Assembly: GCF_018256155.1 (NCBI RefSeq)
Contig: NZ_JAERLY010000014.1
Span: 1-64,000 of the forward strand
DNA from: Gluconobacter sp. Dm-62
GTDB taxonomy: Bacteria > Pseudomonadota > Alphaproteobacteria > Acetobacterales > Acetobacteraceae
Length of the DNA: 64,000 nt
Reading direction: 5' to 3'
The position numbers were made by a program, and so were the translations under genes. The notes under the pieces are model-generated. The model did no database searches and was not told where the DNA came from. It was given only the letters and a program-made list of their open reading frames with translations. The stretch's first letter is position 1; every line of letters starts with the position of its first letter. Positions 48,079 through 59,105 of the stretch are shown here, piece by piece.

Positions 48079-48873
48079 GTGATCGTGCGTCTCTTTTTTC
48101 GAGGGTTTCCGGAACTGGCTGATCTGGTGCTGCAGGCGAGTGGTATCGCCAAGTCCTTTGGTGGGAACGAGGTTCTGAAGGGCCTGTCGCTCGATGTGGA
48201 GCGCGGTGAGCTGATCTCGATGATCGGGCCTTCGGGATGTGGCAAGTCCACGTTCCTGCGCTGCCTCAATTTTCTGGAACATCCGGATGCGGGCTCTGTC
48301 CGGATCGAGGACGTGACGGTCGCTTGTACGGGAAAGCACTGGAGCCGCGCCAATGAGGCCGAGGCGCATAAGCTGCGGTCGCATGTTGGCATGGTCTTTC
48401 AGGCCTTCAATCTGTTTCCCCATCGCACGGTGCTGGACAACGTCATGATGGCGCCGATCCAGGTCAAGAAAATGTCGCGTGACGAGGCGCAGTCCATTGC
48501 GTGCGAACTTCTTGCAAAGGTTGGCCTTGCAGCCGTCAAGGATCGGTATCCCGACAGTCTTTCGGGTGGTCAGAAGCAGCGTGCGGCGATTGCTCGCGCG
48601 CTCGCGATGAAGCCGTCCGTGATGCTGTATGACGAGCCGACGTCGGCGCTGGACCCCGAGCTGTCAGAGGAAGTCCTGTCTGTCATGCGGGCGCTGGATG
48701 ATGATGGCATGACGCAGCTTGTCGTGACGCATGACATGCGTTTCGCGCGTGCGGCCTCGGACCGCGTTCTGTTTGTCGAGGGCGGGGAAATCGTTGAGAG
48801 CGGTGATCCGGACCTGATGTTCGCCAACCCCCGGGAGGGACGGACACGCCGGTTCCTGCGGACGCTGCTGTGA
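48079..48873 (+). CDS. Polar amino-acid ABC transporter ATPase
   Basis: 264 residues if begun at GTG 48079; the conserved region starts at LVLQASGIAKSFGG, so a later start such as GTG 48127 is plausible. Walker A GPSGCGKST, signature LSGGQKQR, Walker B VMLYDEPTSALDPE and H-loop VTHD. The pattern GMVFQAFNLFPHRTVLDN is that of GlnQ/HisP-type ATPases. It overlaps the binding-protein/permease gene by 4 bp. Confidence 0.9.
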   Translation: MIVRLFFRGFPELADLVLQASGIAKSFGGNEVLKGLSLDVERGELISMIGPSGCGKSTFLRCLNFLEHPDAGSVRIEDVTVACTGKHWSRANEAEAHKLRSHVGMVFQAFNLFPHRTVLDNVMMAPIQVKKMSRDEAQSIACELLAKVGLAAVKDRYPDSLSGGQKQRAAIARALAMKPSVMLYDEPTSALDPELSEEVLSVMRALDDDGMTQLVVTHDMRFARAASDRVLFVEGGEIVESGDPDLMFANPREGRTRRFLRTLL

Positions 48874-50405
48874 TGAAGAAAATTCTTGCGCTTGTGCTGG
48901 CTCTCGCGGTTAGCCCCGTTTCTGTCGCGCTGGCGGATGCACCGTCTTCTGCGCCGCAGGAACTGCTTTGGGCGTCGGACGGTGAGGCGAACGTGCCTTA
49001 CGTCTTCCATGACCCGGCTCATGAATCCCGGATGACCGGCTTCGAATACGAACTGGCCGATGCCATCGCGCAGCGTCTGCACCGCAAGGCGACATTTATC
49101 CAGAACGACTGGGACGGTCTGATCCCCGGCCTGTCGCGCGGACTGTACGGTATGGTGCTGGACGGCATCGAAATGACGCCGGAGCACAAGGCGGCCGTTC
49201 TGTTTTCGCGTCCGTATTATGTGACGAGCGAGCGGATTATCGTTCGGCATGACCAGAACGGTCTGGACACGATGGAGGCTCTTAAGGGCCACACTGTTGG
49301 GACGATCAAGGACACGACAGCCGAGCGGATGCTGCGCCGGCAGGGTGGCTCGAACGTGCGGTCCTATGAAGAAGAGACGAATGCGTTCTCTGATCTGCGG
49401 AACGGACGACTGGACGCGATCCTGCTCGATGCGCCGATTGCGCTGTATTATGGCAGCATCTCGCCGGACATGAAGCTCGTGGGCGAGCCGATTGGTAGCA
49501 TGGAATACGGGATCGCGTTTTCGCCGGAAAACCGGGAGTTGCGCGACCAGGTGGATGCGGCGCTCGGCGAAATCATCAAGGACGGGACGCTGCATCGCAT
49601 TCTGGCACGCTGGAACTTGTGGACGCCGCTGATGGCGAATTATACAGGCGATAACAGCCAGCCGGATATCGCGCCGACCGAATGGGACCATTACCGGCAG
49701 GCCATGGCGAACACGACCGGCAGCGGTTGGCATGTTCTGGCGCGGCGTTATGTGAGTTTTCTGCCCCTGATCGGGCAGGCCGCGCTCATGACGCTGGCGG
49801 TTTCGGCGCTGGCCATGGTTCTGGCCGTGGCACTGGGGCTTCTGCTCGCGCTGTCCCGGCATTATGGCGGGGCGCCGCTGCGGTTTGTTGCGGGGATCTA
49901 TGTCGAGGTCGTGCGCGGGACGCCGCTTCTGATTCAGGTGCTGTTCATTTTCTATGGACTGCCAGCTTTTGGCATTCGTCTGTCGCCCTTCATGGCGGGT
50001 GTGCTCTCGCTTGGCCTGAACTATGCGGCCTATGAAGCGGAAAACTACCGCGCCGGTTTACTGTCTGTGGCGCGTGGCCAGATGGAAGCGGCGATTGCGC
50101 TGAACATGACGCACTGGCAGGCGCTGCGGCTCGTGATCGTGCCGCAGGCGTTCCGGACGGTTGTGCCGGTCATGACCAATGACTTCATTTCGCTGCTCAA
50201 GGACAGTTCGCTCGTCTCCGTCATTACGCTGACGGAGCTGAGCCAGACCTATGTGCGGCTGTCTTCCACTTATTACGATTATTTTGGAACGGGGATCATG
50301 GTCGGTCTGGCATATCTGCTGCTCGGACTGCCGTTCGTACGGCTGGCACGCATGGCGGAGCGGCGGCTGGGCCGGGGTTTTTCGGCAGGTGCCGGGCACC
50401 ATTGA
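48870..50405 (+). CDS. Fused amino-acid binding protein and ABC permease
   Basis: 511 residues. A signal peptide (about 1-22) is followed by a family 3 solute-binding domain (about 32-252; MTGFEYELADAIAQRL, DGIEMTPEH, YGIAFSPEN). After a linker comes the permease domain with membrane helices (about 290-500) and motif EVVRGTPLLIQVLFIFYGLP plus the cytoplasmic loop AALNMTHWQALRLVIVPQA-type EAA sequence. Binding protein and channel are one chain, as in GlnPQ-like importers. Substrate: polar amino acid, identity unknown. Its stop codon lies inside a terminator hairpin. Confidence 0.92.
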   Translation: MMKKILALVLALAVSPVSVALADAPSSAPQELLWASDGEANVPYVFHDPAHESRMTGFEYELADAIAQRLHRKATFIQNDWDGLIPGLSRGLYGMVLDGIEMTPEHKAAVLFSRPYYVTSERIIVRHDQNGLDTMEALKGHTVGTIKDTTAERMLRRQGGSNVRSYEEETNAFSDLRNGRLDAILLDAPIALYYGSISPDMKLVGEPIGSMEYGIAFSPENRELRDQVDAALGEIIKDGTLHRILARWNLWTPLMANYTGDNSQPDIAPTEWDHYRQAMANTTGSGWHVLARRYVSFLPLIGQAALMTLAVSALAMVLAVALGLLLALSRHYGGAPLRFVAGIYVEVVRGTPLLIQVLFIFYGLPAFGIRLSPFMAGVLSLGLNYAAYEAENYRAGLLSVARGQMEAAIALNMTHWQALRLVIVPQAFRTVVPVMTNDFISLLKDSSLVSVITLTELSQTYVRLSSTYYDYFGTGIMVGLAYLLLGLPFVRLARMAERRLGRGFSAGAGHH

Positions 50406-50424
50406 ATATGGTGCCCGGTCTTTT
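50392..50424 (+). terminator. Terminator overlapping the stop of the fused transporter gene
   Basis: CCGGGCACCAT (50392-50402), loop TGAAT, then ATGGTGCCCGG (50408-50418) and TCTTTT. The stop codon TGA falls in the loop. The perfect 11-bp stem plus T tract make it a rho-independent terminator for the plus strand. Confidence 0.85.
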
Positions 50425-51368
50425 CAGGCCGGCTGCGGTGCGGACGGGTCGTTGATAAGCGGTGGCACGAGGGTGGCTGTGTCCAGCGTTCCGTCAAATC
50501 CCTGACGCAGGGCGCGTGACCAGCCGATCATCCAGCGATCCAGAGAGTCAATGAACTGGGCAGCATCGGGGTTTTTGTGAACCGAGGCCTTGTTCCAGTA
50601 TTCCGGCGGCGCCAGAAGCTGGCGTGATCCATGTTCGATCGGGGCGACGAGCGTCTCCACCGTTTCGATATGGGCGGTGTTCTTGCCCGCTGCGGCCGCA
50701 TGATACCAGCCGACATTGATCATCAGGCTCGGGACAGGGAAGCCGAGCGTATGCATCCGTGAAAATGCGGCCGTAATGAATGGATCCGTGCTGACGCTCT
50801 GGTTTTCGAGAACAGCGTTGCTGGTGTAGCTGCATTCCTGCGACACGCCCGGTTTGTCTGAAATATGGGCGGCGTAGTCGCGGTCATCATGGCATGGCGT
50901 TTCGAGCTGCTCCGCGAGATCTGCCGGGACGGGCTGCTGCGTGGCACGGACGACAATCACGCCGGAAACGACGCCGCGATCGGTGCGGGCCAGGATCTGC
51001 TGGGACAGTTCACCATGTGCGCCGCTGCGGGCCGTCAGGATCGGATGCCAGTCTCCGGCCGGAAGCGGAAGCGTGCGCCCCGCGATCGTGATGCTTCCAT
51101 GCTGGGTGATGCCGGGATCAGGAACGCCGATCTGGTCTCCGAGACCGGGCGCTCCGCCGGGCTGGGCGGCCTGTTGCGCACCCGGCTGAGAGTCGCCCGA
51201 GCCCGCATTAGAGGGCATGGCACCCGGCAGATGTCCCGGAAGCCACGGCATGGCCTTTTTGAGCGCCGGGGTGGGATAGAAGGCGGCCATACCGAGCGCG
51301 CCAACCGTTACGATCACGCTCGTGCGCCAGAGCGGCGCGCGTCGCCAGAGCCGTCCGAATGCCGTCAT
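50424..51368 (-). CDS. Bitopic membrane protein of the AAA+ cluster (314 aa)
   Basis: 314 residues. A short basic N-terminus (RLWRRAPLWR), one membrane helix (about 14-31), then a Pro/Gly/Gln-rich linker (about 45-85) and a globular extracytoplasmic domain. Two cysteines (ETPCHDD, SQECSYT) could form a disulfide. No domain recognised; residues 195-290 are Trp/Tyr-rich (INVGWYHAAAAG, DSLDRWMIGWSRAL). It starts 3 bp after the AAA+ ATPase stop, so it is the third gene of a three-gene operon. Function unknown. Confidence 0.75.
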   Translation of the reverse strand: MTAFGRLWRRAPLWRTSVIVTVGALGMAAFYPTPALKKAMPWLPGHLPGAMPSNAGSGDSQPGAQQAAQPGGAPGLGDQIGVPDPGITQHGSITIAGRTLPLPAGDWHPILTARSGAHGELSQQILARTDRGVVSGVIVVRATQQPVPADLAEQLETPCHDDRDYAAHISDKPGVSQECSYTSNAVLENQSVSTDPFITAAFSRMHTLGFPVPSLMINVGWYHAAAAGKNTAHIETVETLVAPIEHGSRQLLAPPEYWNKASVHKNPDAAQFIDSLDRWMIGWSRALRQGFDGTLDTATLVPPLINDPSAPQPA

Positions 51369-51371
51369 GGA

Positions 51372-52646
51372 TCAGTGGCTCACCCGGCCGAGCTGGGCTT
51401 CGGCATCGTTGGCGATTTCCGTGATGACGGTGCCGTTCTCCTGCGTGACGAGGCGGACGCGCTTGGCGCCCTGCTGGCGCGCGACGATCAGGCTTTCGCT
51501 GACCATGTCCTCGATGGAGCGGACAAGATCGCGTGCGCTGGCGCCGCTACCGAGGTTCTTCTGTTTCATCATGACCTGGAACAGGACCCCGGCGTCGATA
51601 CCGCCGGTTTCCACATGCAGACCATAGCCTTCGATCATGGCCTCGATTTCCAGTGCGGCGACACGGGCGAGATCCAGTCCACGCAGGGCGCGGAAAATGA
51701 AAATCCGGTCCAGACGGTTGAGGACTTCGGGGGCGAAGCCGGATTTGAGAAGCGCCTCGACCGACTCGGCACGCATTTTCTCAGGCTCGTTGACGAGGCG
51801 GTCGGCAATTTCGGTCAGGGCTTCGGTGGCGACGTTCGATGTCAGCATGAAGATCGCACGCGTGGTCGAGACCTGCTCTCCTGTGGAGGCCTCCGTGACG
51901 TGACCGTCGTTCCAGGCGGTGAGGAATTTCTTGAAGACGTCCGGATGGGCCTTCTCGATCTCGTCGAGCAGGACCACGGCGTCGGGCTTGTCCTTGAGGC
52001 CACCGGTCAGCTTGCCGAATGTGTCAGAGCCAACATAGCCCTTGGGCGAGCCGAAAAGCTGGGTGGCGGCATGGGCGCTGGACATCTGCGTCATGTCAAA
52101 ATTCAGCAGGGGGCGTTCCATCTGCTTGGCCATCTGCTTGGCAAGATAGGTTTTTCCAGTACCCGGCGGCCCTGCGAGCAGGAAAATGCCCACGGGCTTG
52201 CCACGGACCTGAAGCGCCAGGCGGCGGCGCATCTGCTGGGCGATGTCCTCGCAGACCTGGTCCTGTCCGATGACGCGGGCACGCAGGGATGCGGCCAGTT
52301 CGTCGGCGTCGAGGACGGTTTCGCGCTGTTCGCGGGCCATGAGCTCTTCAAGGGCTCCGCGGTTCGTCAGACGGCTGAGAACATCCATGATGAGACCTTT
52401 CCTGCGGCGCAGTCCGCGACGCGCCAGTTTTTCGGCTGATGTTTCATACGCCAGCCCCGTGACTGCCAGAAGGGCGCTGATGCCTGCCAGCGGAAGATAG
52501 AAACGCCGTCCCCATTCGATGGCGGCCCACAGCCCGTTCAGCGACAGGTGTAGCATGACCGCGACCTGAATGACCGCCAGAATAAGGAAGGCGGCCATCA
52601 TCAGCGGCATGGCCCGGTTGAGCATGGGAACGAGAGACTTGAACAC
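51372..52646 (-). CDS. Membrane-anchored AAA+ ATPase, ClpA/ClpB D2 type
   Basis: 424 residues. Two N-terminal membrane helices (about 13-33 and 50-67), a basic juxtamembrane segment, then one AAA+ module: Walker A GPPGTGKT (159-166), pore loop GYVG (203-206), Walker B VVLLDEIEKAH (224-234), sensor 1 Asn271, arginine finger Arg311 in PEVLNRLD and sensor 2 GASARD. It resembles the second ring of ClpA/ClpB without the N-domain or first ring. No IGF/IGL-type ClpP-docking tripeptide was seen between sensor 1 and the arginine finger, so it probably remodels or threads proteins rather than feeding ClpP. It lies between two bitopic proteins in one operon. Confidence 0.88.
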   Translation of the reverse strand: MFKSLVPMLNRAMPLMMAAFLILAVIQVAVMLHLSLNGLWAAIEWGRRFYLPLAGISALLAVTGLAYETSAEKLARRGLRRRKGLIMDVLSRLTNRGALEELMAREQRETVLDADELAASLRARVIGQDQVCEDIAQQMRRRLALQVRGKPVGIFLLAGPPGTGKTYLAKQMAKQMERPLLNFDMTQMSSAHAATQLFGSPKGYVGSDTFGKLTGGLKDKPDAVVLLDEIEKAHPDVFKKFLTAWNDGHVTEASTGEQVSTTRAIFMLTSNVATEALTEIADRLVNEPEKMRAESVEALLKSGFAPEVLNRLDRIFIFRALRGLDLARVAALEIEAMIEGYGLHVETGGIDAGVLFQVMMKQKNLGSGASARDLVRSIEDMVSESLIVARQQGAKRVRLVTQENGTVITEIANDAEAQLGRVSH

Positions 52647-52657
52647 CGGGCTGTTCC

Positions 52658-53269
52658 TTACTGGACGATCACGTTGAGCAGGACGCGCTGGTCGAGCGTC
52701 GTCAGGGCGGGCAGGGCTTCAGGGCCAAGTGCTGTCAGGGCGCCGACGATCAGGGCCGGGGCATGTGGCATGCTGACAGGAGCAATGAGGATCTGTCCGG
52801 CTTCGACAATGGGAATGACCAGATGCTGGAACTTGCCCGTCAGGACAATACGCTGTGTCAGGCCCGAGACCGTCACGTCAATGCTCTGGCCGACTGCGCC
52901 CGACGCATCCAGAACCGGCATTTCCACAAGGCGCATCTTACCGTCTTTTACGGCGGCCAGAATGCGCGCACGGTCGGCAGGACTGAAGCCGCTTTTTGCG
53001 AGGGCGGCCGGTGCTTTCGCAGGAGGAAGCATGGAGAGCTGGACCGCGGCTGTCTGGGCAGCAGGGACAGCCGGAGTGCTCTGGGACGGTGGGGCAACAG
53101 CGGGCGCTGGCGGCGTGGTCGTATTATGAGTGTAGAAGAAAGCGCCAGCTCCGACGGTCAGGGCCGCGATCAGGCCACCTCCGCCCCACAGCGCCCGGCT
53201 CCGGGACGCGGGTTCGGAAAGCAGCGGCTGCGGGCGCGGTTCGGGACGGGGCTCGGGCTGGGACGTCAT
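52658..53269 (-). CDS. Bitopic membrane protein of the AAA+ cluster (203 aa)
   Basis: 203 residues. A Pro-rich cytoplasmic N-terminus (EPRPEPRPQP), one membrane helix (about 27-46), a Pro/Ala/Thr-rich linker (50-90) and a C-terminal extracytoplasmic domain of about 110 residues with beta pattern (SIDVTVSGLTQRIVLTG, HLVIPIVEAGQILIAPVS). No family recognised. First gene of the operon; the AAA+ gene begins 11 bp after its stop. Its promoter must lie in the 216-bp gap shared with the divergent rimP leader. Confidence 0.72.
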   Translation of the reverse strand: MTSQPEPRPEPRPQPLLSEPASRSRALWGGGGLIAALTVGAGAFFYTHNTTTPPAPAVAPPSQSTPAVPAAQTAAVQLSMLPPAKAPAALAKSGFSPADRARILAAVKDGKMRLVEMPVLDASGAVGQSIDVTVSGLTQRIVLTGKFQHLVIPIVEAGQILIAPVSMPHAPALIVGALTALGPEALPALTTLDQRVLLNVIVQ

Positions 53270-53485: not shown

Positions 53486-54097
53486 TTGTCTCAGCAGAAC
53501 GCCTCTTCCGATATCGAACTGCCCCATCTCACGGGGCTGGAAGCCCGCATTGCGGAGCGGATCGCACCGACGCTGGCCGATCTGGGCTATGAGCTCGTGC
53601 GTCTTTCCGTGCTGGGACGCGATACCCCGACGATCCAGATCATGGCGGACCGTGCGAACGGTTCCCTGATCTCGGTGGAAGACTGCGAACAGATCAGTCA
53701 TGCTGCCGGCGCCATTCTGGACGTTGACGATCCGATCCCCGGTGCGTGGATGCTGGAAGTGTCGTCCTCGGGGATCGACCGTCCGCTGACGCGTGCCAAG
53801 GACTGGGAGCGATTCGCCGGTCATCTGGCGAAGGCCGAGCTGGACGTTCCTCTGAATGGCCGCCGCCGCTTTTCGGGCACCGTTATGGGGGCACGGGACG
53901 GTAATGCCATCATCCGTCTGGATGACGGGACTGAAGCCGTTCTGCCGCTGGTGGATATTCGCAAGGCCCGTCTGGTCCTGACCGATGCGCTGATCGAGGC
54001 GAGTGCGGCCCTTGCAGGCCTTAATCCTGAAGGGGAAGATGGCGAAGAAACGCGCCAGGCGCCCAAACTGAATCCGAAGAAGCCGGGGAAGAAGTGA
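53486..54097 (+). CDS. rimP: Ribosome maturation factor RimP
   Basis: 203 residues. Family pattern [24 protein letters not shown], then [23 protein letters not shown], followed by a C-terminal SH3-like domain ([18 protein letters not shown]) and a basic tail. It helps assemble the 30S subunit. The only plausible start is TTG 53486, without a Shine-Dalgarno and only four bases after the leader terminator's T run, so initiation is probably weak and tied to leader structure. First gene of rimP-nusA-ylxR/L7Ae-infB-rbfA. Confidence 0.93.
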
Positions 54098-54131: not shown

Positions 54132-55685
54132 ATGGACACGTCTGTTACACGTCCCGAACTGCTGCTGGTTGCCGATGCAGTATCCCGCGAGAAGAACATC
54201 GACCGCGAGGAAGTGCTGGAAGCCATGGAGCAGGCCATCCAGAAGGCTGGCCGCGCGAAGTACGGGCATGAAAAGGACATCCGTGCGACGATCGACCGCA
54301 AGAGCGGCGAAGTCCGTCTGAGCCGCTGGACCGAAGCCGTCGAGCAGGTCGAGAACGAGGATACGCAGATCCCGCTGCACATCGCCCGGAAGTTCCAGCC
54401 GGAAATCCAGGCTGGTGAGCATCTGGTCGATCCGCTGCCGCCGATCGATTTCGGACGTATCGCAGCACAGACGGCCAAGCAGGTCATCGTGCAGCGTGTT
54501 CGTGAGTACGAGCGCAAGCGCCAGTACAACGAGTTCAAGGACCGCGTGGGCGAGATCGTCAACGGCACCGTCAAGCGGACCGAGTACGGCAATCTCATGG
54601 TCGAGATCGGCCATACGGAAGCCCTACTGCGTCGTGACGAGCTGATTCCCCGCGAATCCTTCCGCAATTCCGACCGCGTCCGCGCCTACATCTATGATGT
54701 GCGTGACGAGCCGCGCGGCCCGCAGATCTTCCTGTCACGCACGCATCCGGCCTTCCTGGCCAAGCTGTTTGCGCAGGAAGTTCCGGAAATCTACGACGGT
54801 ATCATCGAGATCAAGGCCGTGTCCCGTGATCCGGGATCGCGCGCCAAGATGGCTGTGATTTCCCGCGATGCGGCGATCGACCCGGTCGGTGCCTGCGTTG
54901 GTATGCGTGGCTCCCGCGTTCAGGCCGTCGTGGCCGAACTGCAGGGTGAAAAGATCGACATCATTCCCTGGAGCCCGCAGGCCGCGACATTCGTCGTCAA
55001 TGCGCTGGCGCCCGCTGAAGTCAGCAAGGTGGTGATGGATGAGGAAGCGGGTCGCGTTGAAGTCGTGGTGCCGGATGAGCAGCTTTCGCTGGCCATCGGT
55101 CGCCGTGGGCAGAACGTGCGTCTCGCCAGCCAGCTGACGCGCTGGGACATCGACATCCTGACGGAGGCCGAGGAATCGGAGCGTCGTCAGGAAGAGTTCC
55201 GCAAGCGCTCCTCGCAGTTCGTGGATGCGCTGGACGTTGATGACGTGATTGCAGGTCTGCTGGTAACGGAAGGCTTCCACACGATCGAGGAACTGGCCTA
55301 TACCGACCCGGTCGAGCTGAACGATATCGAAGGTTTTGACGAGAGCGTGGCTGAAGAGCTCATGCATCGCGCCAATGATTATCTGGCCAGCAAGGAACAG
55401 GCCCTGGATGACCAGCGCAAGGCGCTGGGTGTCACGGACGATGTGGCCGAGCTGGGGACCTTTACGAACCAGATGCTGGTGACGCTGGGTGAGAAGGGCG
55501 TGAAGACGCTCGATGATCTGGCGGATCTGGCCGGTGACGAACTGGTGGAAATCCTCGGTGAGGATGCCATCGACGAAGACGCAGCCAACGAGATCATCAT
55601 GGCGGCGCGTGCGCACTGGTTCGATGGTGAAGAAGCCGACTCGGCAAAGCCCGAAAACGGTGACGGGGAGTCGACCGACGTCTGA
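54132..55685 (+). CDS. nusA: Transcription termination/antitermination factor NusA
   Basis: 517 residues. N-terminal RNA-polymerase-binding domain, S1 domain (about 135-200), two KH domains ([20 protein letters not shown] and [18 protein letters not shown]) and C-terminal helix-hairpin-helix repeats ([34 protein letters not shown]). It modulates pausing, termination and antitermination. GGAGG lies nine bases before the ATG. Its end overlaps the probable start of the next gene by 26 bp. Confidence 0.97.
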
Positions 55686-56337
55686 TATTTCTGATACTGA
55701 TAATGGTCCCGTTCGTGGTGCTCTAGGGCGTCGCGGCTCGGAGCGGCGATGCATCGTTACGCGAGAGCAGAAGCCGCCTGAAGGCATGATCCGTTTTGTG
55801 GTCAGCCCGGATAACCGGGTTGTGCCCGACCTCGCCGGAAAGCTTCCGGGTCGGGGAATGTGGTTGAGTGCCAGCCGGGATGTGTTAGATAGCGCCCGCA
55901 CACGACAGGCTTTCGCTAGAGCGGCAAAAGCCCAGGTGATCGTACCGGAAGGCCTTGCCGATCTCATCGGGGCCGCTCTGGTGCAGCGGATGCTGGACGC
56001 AGTCAGCCTGGCCCGGAGAGCGGGTCAGACGGTCTGCGGGTTTCAGAAGTGCCGGGAGTGGCTTACCTCCGGCAGGGTAGGGGTGGTGATCCGTTCGGAA
56101 AGTGCAAGTCCGGACGAATTCTCCAGACTGGTGTCGGGCCGGCGTTCTCTGCCGGTTGTGACAGTTCCCGACCGGGTCCTGGAATCGGCGTTCAGCCGGG
56201 ACCGGGCGGTCTATGCGGTGATGGCGCCTGGTGCGCTGGCACAGCGCCTGATCGCCGAACATGAGAGATTTTCGGGAGTGGCAGGACGTCCGCTCCCAGA
56301 CCCCGCTGGGGTCAGTAAGGAACAGGCGGAACTATGA
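55660..56337 (+). CDS. YlxR (DUF448) - L7Ae fusion RNA-binding protein
   Basis: About 225 residues from GTG 55660, the last in-frame GTG/ATG before the conserved region; an ATT at 55690 is another option, so the start is uncertain. The YlxR domain has [20 protein letters not shown] (GRGMWLS follows). The second half has an L7Ae/YlxQ-like fold: LGLADLIG-type helix, [20 protein letters not shown] and VGVVIRSE. In many bacteria these are separate ylxR and ylxQ genes in the nusA-infB operon; here they are joined. It overlaps infB by 4 bp. Confidence 0.88.
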
Positions 56338-59105
56338 GCGACGGCAACGAGCGCAACCAGGACGGAAACAACACCCCATCACAGGGCGGCGAACAGACCA
56401 AAAGCAGCCGGCTGTCGCTTCGCCCTGCTGGGCGTCCGGAGGTCGGGCGTACTGTGGATGCTGGCTCCGTGCGTCAGAGCTTCAGCCATGGCCGTTCCAA
56501 GGTCGTGCAGGTTGAAGTGCGCAAGCCCAAGCGCAATGCGGCTGGCCCGGGTGCCGGTGCGGCGGCCCGTGGTGGTCGTGGTGCGGGTGGTCGTGCCCTG
56601 ACGGCAGCCGAACTGGCTGCCCGCCAGCGCGCCCTTGAGGGGCAGCGCAAGGCTGCGGCCGATGAGGCCGCGCGGCGCGAGGAAGAAAAGATCCAGATCA
56701 TGTCTGCCGCCGAAGCTGCGCGTCGCGCCGCTGAGGAAGAGCGTCTGATCACCGAGCAGAAGGCTGCGGAAATCGCTGCCCTGCAGGAAAGCGAGCAGCA
56801 GGCGGCCCGTGAGCAGGCTGCTGCTGAAGCTGCGGCGCGTGCTGCGGAACAGGCTGCCGCCGAGGCTGCAGCCCGTGAGGCCGAGGAAGCTGCGAGAGCG
56901 GCTCCGCTCGACCCGCGCAATCACTCGACCGGCGGTGTGCAGCTTGCTGCTCCGGTCCAGCGTCTGCGTCCTCTGGCTGAGCGTGCCATCATGCCGCCGC
57001 GTCCGGTTCAGCCGTCGCGTCCGGCAGCATCGGCGTCCGCACCTGCCCGTAACAACGAAACCCTTCATCTGCGTTCCGGTGCGGCTGCCGCTGCTGGTGG
57101 CGAAGAAGAACGTCGCCCCGCACCGCGCCGCAGTGGTCCGGGTGCTCCGCCTGCACCGCCGCGTCGTCAGGCTGCACCGTCCCGCAAGGCTGCCGGTGGC
57201 AGTGACCGCCGTTCGGGCCGCATCGACGTCCGCGCTGCGATCGAAGGTGATGACGACAAGACGCGTTCGCTGGCTTCGGTCCGTCGTCAGCGTGACCGTG
57301 AGCGCCGTCAGGCCGAACTGGAGCGTCTGCGTTCCGATCAGGTCCGCGTCGTTCGTGACGTCATCGTGCCGGAAACCATCACGGTTGCCGAACTGGCCAA
57401 CCGTATGGCGTCCCGTCAGGGTGAAGTCATCAAGGCTCTCATGAAGATGGGCGTCATGGCGACGGCTGCTCAGAGCATCGATGGCGACACGGCTGAGCTG
57501 GTGGTCGAGGAATTCGGTCATCGCATCAAGCGCGTTTCCGAGAGCGATGTCGAAATCGGCATCGAAGGCGTGGAAGACAGCGCCGGCGATCTGCAGCCGC
57601 GTGCTCCGGTCGTAACGGTCATGGGCCATGTCGATCACGGCAAGACCTCTCTGCTCGACGCGCTGCGCACCACGGATGTGGCTGCAAGCGAAGCGGGCGG
57701 AATCACGCAGCATATCGGTGCGTATCAGATCACTGCACCTTCGGGACGGAAGATCACCTTCATCGATACGCCGGGTCATGAGGCCTTCACCTCGATGCGT
57801 GCCCGCGGTGCGTCGGTGACCGATATCGTGATCCTGGTTGTGGCGGCTGATGACGGCGTGATGCCGCAGACGATCGAAGCCATTAAGCATGCCAAGGCTG
57901 CCAATGCTCCGATCATCGTGGCCATCAACAAGATCGACAAGCCGGGCGCCAATCCTGCCCGTGTCCGTCAGGAACTTCTGAGCCACGAGATCGTGGTCGA
58001 GGAAATGGGTGGCGACACCCAGGACGTCGAGGTTTCGGCCCTCAAGCGGACCGGACTGGACAAGCTTGAAGAGTGCATCCTGCTCCAGTCGGAAATGCTG
58101 GATCTGCGCGCCAATCCGGACCGTGTTGCCGAAGGTGTGGTGATCGAAAGCCGTCTGGATCGTGGACGTGGCCCCGTGGCCTCCGTTCTCGTCCAGAAGG
58201 GTACTCTGCGCCGGGGCGACATCCTGGTGGCCGGTTCCGAATGGGGCCGTGTCCGCGCCGTGCTCGATGACCGTGGTCGTCAGCTCAAGGATGCCGGCCC
58301 GTCCATGCCCGTCGAGGTCCTTGGCCTGACAGGTGTGCCGGGTGCAGGTGAGCCGTTCGTTGTTGTTGAAACCGATGCCCGGGCCCGCGAAATCAGCGAG
58401 TTCCGTCAGCGGAAGATCAAGGACAAGGAAGCCGCCTCTCAGGTTGCTGCCCGTGGAACGCTTGACCAGATGCTGGCGCGTATCCAGGCCGGTGTGCAGA
58501 AGGAAGTTGCCCTTCTCATCAAGGCCGACGTGCAGGGTTCTGCGGAAGCGATTTCCACGACAGTTCAGAAGCTGGCCCATGAGGAAGTTGCTGTCCGCGT
58601 TCTGAACGCCACTGTTGGTCAGATCACGGAAAGTGACATCCAGCTTGCCAAGGCTTCGAATGCCATCATTGTGGCCTTCAATGTCCGTGCAACATCTCAG
58701 GCGCGTGAACTGGCCCAGCGTGAGGGTGTGGACATCCGCTATTACTCGATCATCTACCAGGTGGCGGATGACGTGGAGCAGCTGGTCAAGGGCAAGGTTG
58801 CACCGAAGCACCGCGAGAAGTTCCTGGGCTATGCCGAGATCCGTCAGGTCTTCAACATCACCAAGACCGGCAAGGTCGCGGGTTGCTACGTCACCGAAGG
58901 CCTCGTCAAGCGCGGCTGTGGCGTGCGTCTGCTGCGTGACAACGTTGTCATCCACGAGGGCGATCTGAGCCAGCTCAAGCGCTTCAAGGACGACGTCAAG
59001 GAAGTGGCTCGTGGTTACGAGTGTGGCCTGTCGTTTGCGGGTTACAACGACCTCCGCGAAGGCGACATGGTCGAGTGCTATGAAATGGAAGTGATCCCGG
59101 CTTGA
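56334..59105 (+). CDS. infB: Translation initiation factor IF-2
   Basis: 923 residues. A long N-terminal region is rich in Ala, Glu and Arg (about 75-190) and predicted coiled coil, followed by a Pro/Arg-rich linker. The GTPase domain starts with GHVDHGKT (431-438), then DTPGHEAF and NKIDKPGA; domains II-IV follow. It brings initiator tRNA to the 30S subunit. The repetitive Ala-rich DNA at 56600-56910 reflects this coiled coil, not a mobile repeat. Overlaps rbfA by 4 bp. Confidence 0.98.

Follow-up and report, generated by a model that had tools for sequence, protein, structure and literature searches.

An operon of acetic acid bacteria encoding a membrane-anchored Clp-type ATPase: loss of protein A alongside the catalytic residues of the motor

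The window analyzed here, a stretch of 64,000 nucleotides from Gluconobacter sp. Dm-62, contains three adjacent genes for a membrane-anchored AAA+ protein (B) and two bitopic proteins (A and C). These genes form one operon, which is retained by most of the acetic acid bacteria sampled. We found that A is lost alongside the catalytic residues of B, with C staying beside B, and that some lineages can do without these catalytic residues. The overall explanation that we prefer, tentatively and with somewhat more doubt than confidence, is that a ring of B docks on C and pulls on A or on cargo that A delivers. The features of the locus are:

52658..53269, minus strand: gene A, open reading frame of 203 aa
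53135..53191, minus strand: membrane helix of A, residues about 27-45 by Kyte-Doolittle hydropathy
51372..52646, minus strand: gene B, open reading frame of 424 aa with a GTG start
52551..52607, minus strand: membrane helix 1 of B, residues ~14-32 by Kyte-Doolittle hydropathy
52428..52502, minus strand: membrane helix 2 of B, residues about 49-73 (49-67 by Kyte-Doolittle hydropathy)
52149..52172, minus strand: Walker A of B, GPPGTGKT, residues 159-166
52029..52040, minus strand: pore loop of B, GYVG, residues 203-206
51957..51977, minus strand: Walker B of B, VVLLDEI, residues 224-230
50424..51368, minus strand: gene C, open reading frame of 314 aa
51324..51350, minus strand: LWxxAxxWR motif of C, residues 7-15, proposed B-binding element
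53486..54097, plus strand: rimP, divergent neighbor of the operon in conserved synteny
54132-55685: nusA, after rimP
56334-59105: infB, after nusA

An earlier sequence-only reading of this DNA had described three consecutive leftward frames of 203, 424 and 314 aa, and its coordinates were borne out, as were the gaps of 11 bp (A-B) and 3 bp (B-C). The host genome can be placed in or close to Gluconobacter, whose species are its nearest named relatives, with B 97% identical. The A-B-C order is conserved across loci. In most genera outside Gluconobacter A and B overlap by 4 bases (gap of -4); the spacing is 10-14 in Gluconobacter and Neokomagataea and 43-199 in some other genera, and that between B and C ranges from -4 to 169. 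Among the best 80 of 116 B relatives, nusA lies near B in 79 loci, the exception (L081) being a short contig. In four separate, deep-branching loci (L115-L118), no nusA was found. Note that rimP, nusA and infB are presumed names, assigned from sequence and gene order rather than by family search. On the other side of the operon, a plus-strand gene (48870-50405) encodes a 511-aa chain joining the SBP_bac_3 binding protein of an amino-acid ABC transporter to its BPD_transp_1 permease, accompanied by 48079-48873 (plus strand). In the divergent loci L119-L121, inspection by eye showed a gene like this fusion, convergent to C.

B consists of a membrane hairpin followed by a single AAA+ module of the HSP100/Clp D2 type. 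The assignment rests on the AAA_2 domain (130.6 bits against a Pfam cut-off of 27), the pore loop and the arginine finger. All the motifs previously ascribed to B were located in its sequence, including the sensor TSN and the box VII motif PEVLNRLD. From residue 78 onward, B aligns with the second ring only of ClpA/ClpB-type proteins, and the ClpB model was matched only at positions 532-842 of 853. B has neither a Clp N-domain nor a first ring, in line with the earlier reading. Two hydrophobic segments were found by simple Kyte-Doolittle analysis in 101 of 106 relatives, and the charges suggest that the hairpin is oriented N-in. GYVG-type loops of HSP100 rings pull polypeptides.

B thus resembles the second ring of ClpA, ClpB, ClpC and ClpE in its Walker A/B motifs, aromatic pore loop, sensor and box VII arginine. 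In contrast to these proteins, it is a single ring in which the hairpin replaces N-domain and first ring, it lacks the ClpP tripeptide, and it has two bitopic partners. Its second-best match within the host genome, on contig 11 (31% identity), is a protein that we take to be ClpA. The kinship of the AAA module, nearest to Clp/HSP100 second rings, is what speaks for B being a component of a ClpP-type protease or a ClpV-like part of a secretion machine, a reading that we consider very improbable. B scored far below the NCBIfam equivalog cut-offs for ClpB (172.3 bits against 1232), ClpA (165.6 against 993) and TssH/ClpV (149.4 against 885). The ClpP-docking tripeptide [LIVM]G[FL], which had been reported missing from the window protein, was absent from all 104 B proteins (out of 106) whose relevant segment could be delimited, whereas ClpA of the same genome carries IGF at its docking loop. 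The lack of an N-domain and a first ring and the neighbors, rimP-nusA and an amino-acid ABC transporter, also argue against this reading.

Membrane-anchored AAA+ proteins with bitopic partners facing the periplasm are known from FtsH/m-AAA with HflKC or prohibitins. Unlike these, B has no metalloprotease domain: it scored 19.4 bits against the FtsH equivalog (cut-off 600), and no HEXXH protease motif was seen by eye in its translation. Torsin with LAP1/LULL1 likewise combines a single Clp-type ring with bitopic membrane cofactors, but torsins lack aromatic pore loops and reside on the opposite side of the membrane. The Torsin model gave 25.4 bits, below its Pfam gathering score of 27. We know of hardly any description of membrane-anchored Clp-type rings without a protease in bacteria. 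The best PHROGs match (phrog_4871, 3.6e-59) and the PADLOC matches PDC-M37B (1.5e-24) and DolB (4.6e-20) covered the AAA part of B only and were set aside as general Clp/AAA likeness.

We analyzed the two partners by profile and structure searches. A comprises a Pro-rich cytosolic N-terminal tail (mean Pro fraction 0.21, n=89), a membrane helix, a Pro-rich linker and an alpha/beta domain (AlphaFold2, mean pLDDT 78). Kyte-Doolittle analysis marks two more weak hydrophobic segments toward its C-terminus, and the C-terminal residue is Gln in 92 of 94 sequences. In C, a cytosolic LWRRAPLWR motif is followed by a membrane helix near residues 13-31 (weak Kyte-Doolittle peak of 1.32), a Pro-rich linker and a PLPxGxW-type domain with a conserved Cys pair; two cysteines beyond residue 40 are present in 103 of 106 C proteins. 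The C model has a mean pLDDT of 87, with block means of 83-98 from residue 81 onward and a low-confidence linker. Hydropathy and charges indicate that the folded domains of both proteins are probably periplasmic. Residues L7, W8, A11, P12, W14 and R15 of C are invariant in 37 sequences, and the looser motif L[WR]xxAxxWR occurs in 106 of 106.

As single sequences, neither protein had a match at E<=1 in Pfam, NCBIfam or PADLOC, nor did C in PHROGs; the PHROGs matches of A (E 0.013 and 0.24 only) pointed to no convincing family. Searches with 30 aligned A members gave chance-level matches (best Pfam 0.029; best NCBIfam 0.0026, in 2 of 30), as did those with 37 aligned C members (best 0.013 in Pfam and 0.046 in NCBIfam, one member each). 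Against the PDB, the A profile matched at E>1 only and the C profile not at all. Foldseek returned nothing at E<=0.001 for the A model in the PDB or for the C model in the PDB and viral models. A likeness of C to Mog1/Tsi3 and GntR effector domains was too weak and was dropped. A and C are unrelated to each other (hhalign profile probability 0.1). In these searches neither partner fell clearly into a known secretion or protease family, and the combination, as in the sequence-only reading, was matched to no described system. Titles and abstract beginnings in the open-access literature yielded no paper recognized as dealing with the A-B-C system, and the passages of PMC12041372 that were read make no mention of the three genes.

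The expected co-occurrence of the genes in related genomes was found: among 107 B loci scanned, C was present in 106 (tblastn) and A in 103 (profile), across identities of 25-97%. A was missing by profile from L088 (Microvirga), L112 (G116), L113 (G061) and L114 (G070). At 12 loci with intact B, tblastn found no A; the profile recovered it in 11 of them (including L221 and L222), leaving L088. A diverges much faster than B, the two being ~30-45% and 70-80% identical, respectively, outside Gluconobacter. In a family sample of 120 genomes, B was found in 27 (E<=1e-50), C in the same 27 plus four remote or contig-edge matches, and A in 24, the B genomes without A being G061, G070 and G116. An order sample of 299 genomes, each at least 90% complete, had B in 130 (E<=1e-60) and C in these 130 and eight more. 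Of the eight, G061 also has a B, found separately, C of G049 sits at a contig edge, and the other six have no more than remote relatives. A was detected in 127, weakly in two that have no B (G173 and G304). G128 (1.7 Mb) had none of A, B and C, though its genus (g31) is otherwise B-bearing.

In a class sample of 385 genomes, B was found in two only, at E<=1e-55, and these belong to the same family as the window; in a scan of a genome collection the best 80 of 116 B relatives were all Acetobacteraceae by title. Among viral contigs, the window's B had no match and the Microvirga B one, to the AAA part only; a B profile hit at least 80 loci, discarded as Clp-type AAA modules, all listed matches starting at residue 68 or later. 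No phage record spanned 80% of B. The Microvirga protein was the sole plasmid relative over 80% of B, and a single-sequence C query found no match among plasmids. Within the sampled range, the A-B-C system belongs to acetic acid bacteria and their close kin. Of the broader earlier proposal, an unfoldase, remodeler or extraction machine, we retain the membrane-anchored ATPase of the Clp second-ring type, its two undescribed bitopic partners and their co-occurrence; the activity itself is kept as a conditional proposal.

Six genomes with B but without A (G061, G070, G116, G181, G216 and G239) were read residue by residue. In all six, the GYxG pore loop of B is deleted or replaced and the DE pair of Walker B is altered (NE in G116, ED in G216 and G239, NG in G181, QN in G061, DG in G070). 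Five of the six have a changed Walker A (all but G181), five have lost the sensor-1 Asn (all but G116), and three have lost the box VII arginine, which G116, G216 and G239 retain. This retention counts against our preferred explanation: loss of ATPase activity is a prediction, least sure for G116, where the sensor Asn and the Glu of Walker B (NE) are still in place. In the six, identity to the window protein is 20-46% in the large AAA subdomain, which contains the catalytic site, compared to 35-51% in the small subdomain and 46-76% across residues 123-152. All six genomes have a full-length B and a C with LWxxAxxWR. Since rimP and B are only 249-281 bp apart in the six A-less tips, compared to 675-1894 bp in the other 39, A is physically gone rather than unrecognized.

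In A-bearing genomes, every B checked has an aromatic pore loop (GYVG; GYMG in L018; GFVG in L103); L018, which a strict pattern had flagged, and L103, without GYxG, were accordingly dismissed as exceptions. The A-bearing B proteins of the order sample (125 and G144), compared by bit score and in part read residue by residue, score >660 bits except for G144, and the four A-less ones there 233-484 bits. In G144, A gives a weak match (E 6e-9), and B, at 501 bits, has intact motifs. On a NusA+InfB tree (45 tips, FastTree, root chosen on L122 and L233), A was lost on five branches, accounting for the six genomes, and the motifs of B decayed on the same five. The probability of five shared branches among 87 at random is 2.7e-8, a figure that ignores shared ecology; G061 and G070 are placed with weak support (0.45 and 0.82), so that the events may number four. 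Saccharibacter L037, sister of the decayed pair G216/G239, has an A of 155 aa, of which only residues 60-144 align, together with an intact B, as if A had been lost before B decayed.

Because the pore loops are lost whenever A is lost, pulling by B appears to serve A, whether A is the client or acts as an adaptor or activator. The retention of C and full-length B after decay of the motor suggests a second, ATP-independent role of B and C. In G216 and G239, both decayed, B differs by a dS of 0.29 and a dN of 0.016 (dN/dS 0.057; 0.049 for the AAA part), and C has a dN/dS of 0.07. The low ratio indicates that the decayed B of this pair is maintained, a result from one pair, the others being saturated at synonymous sites (B of G181 and L084, unreliable for this reason, gave 0.20).

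Instead of pointing to a client relation, the co-loss could stem from a relaxation of selection in small genomes. Small-genome lineages would simply have dropped use of the system, leaving A and the catalytic residues unneeded with no direct link between them. The six A-less genomes are all small (1.9-2.4 Mb), a genuine confounder, and at the thresholds used neither B nor C nor a linked A turned up in other small genomes such as those of genus g41. Such coincidental decay is nevertheless unlikely in our judgment: genus g33 includes ten genomes of 1.9-2.1 Mb in which A is present and B scores 744-758 bits, and G181 alone lacks A and has a decayed B. The retention of C and full-length B and the purifying selection on B in G216/G239 likewise speak against it.

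In the mechanism that we prefer, single-module Clp-type B subunits would form a ring on the inner side of the cytoplasmic membrane, anchored by their hairpins and docked on C through its cytosolic LWxxAxxWR motif and membrane helix. The GYVG loops would grip A, most likely by its Pro-rich cytosolic tail, or cargo delivered by A, and ATP-driven pulling through the ring would displace A from the B-C complex or recycle it. Once A is gone, the motor would be without work, its pore loop and catalytic residues would decay, and B would remain as a scaffold for C. A separable design of this kind, with B and its C anchor as core and A as dedicated substrate, and with substrate and catalysis repeatedly discarded while an ATP-independent scaffold is kept, is conceivable, and we lean against it more than for it. 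As to the periplasmic process served, the enzymes of oxidative fermentation are a guess. The repeated natural experiment suggests a target for the motor and makes it directly testable whether B acts on A; in this industrially important group of bacteria, the decayed-motor lineages provide ready controls for separating scaffold from ATPase function.

A relative covering 92% of B at 43% identity is encoded on the Microvirga plasmid pMVF16-3 (NZ_CP069357.1, L088), with its motifs intact. The feature next to it is:

L088 21220-21414: unannotated 64-aa open reading frame, 10 bp past the B stop, truncated C-like partner

This frame has GGAGGAG ahead of its ATG and contains LWNEASVWR and a hydrophobic stretch, without a periplasmic domain. 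It matches positions 5-52 of the C profile (E 4.5e-5 in the whole 731-kb plasmid, 1.7e-6 in 10 kb), and position and motif together make a chance match unlikely. The segment of LWxxAxxWR and helix in C is thus the likely B-binding element and the best candidate for a contact. No A-like frame was found within 10 kb of the Microvirga B (best E 0.59) or in the 41-kb locus, beyond which the plasmid was searched for C only. Since B is intact there, clients other than A must be possible.

The same locus bears on whether A is an adaptor or activator, with B as a general membrane-protein unfoldase or dislocase for which A recruits substrates or stimulates the ring. Cofactors act in this way on other Clp and torsin ATPases, and a motor idle without its activator would also produce the co-loss. 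The short Pro-rich tail and membrane anchor of A fit an adaptor, as does its faster divergence relative to B. A general quality-control role, however, would be expected to outlast one adaptor, and in Microvirga the motifs of B are intact in a neighborhood that has no A. We regard the adaptor reading as a possibility, though a doubtful one.

Docking of B on C with pulling on A, our preferred explanation, has a further point against it in that C is not untouchable. C reads as fragments in G124, G159 and G200, and between L084 and L086 it has a dN/dS of 0.56, with B free of any amino-acid change. G124 has A, and the motifs of its B are intact. As a separate observation, the genomes with a fragmented reading of C (G124 at L222, G159 and G200) and G133, in which C has an internal TGA, all have a well-scoring B, possibly a second route of decay in which the motor stays.

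By its sequence, the periplasmic domain of C belongs to a wider, nameless family of exported PLPxGxW proteins of Alphaproteobacteria. These relatives share the domain but not the anchor: LWxxAxxWR occurs in 0 of 18 paralogue frames (some overlapping). L250, L251, L253, L255 and L256 encode larger exported proteins containing C-like PLPxGxW domains, and among six relatives scanned with Pfam, two (L250 and L256) have DUF2061 membrane domains. In L259 (2671-4053), for which Pfam gave no match, a C-like domain lies behind a region that by eye resembles the periplasmic ClpP/crotonase-type COG3904 family, a presumed identity. At L193 (511-2951, genome G011), three adjacent genes encode exported C-like proteins.
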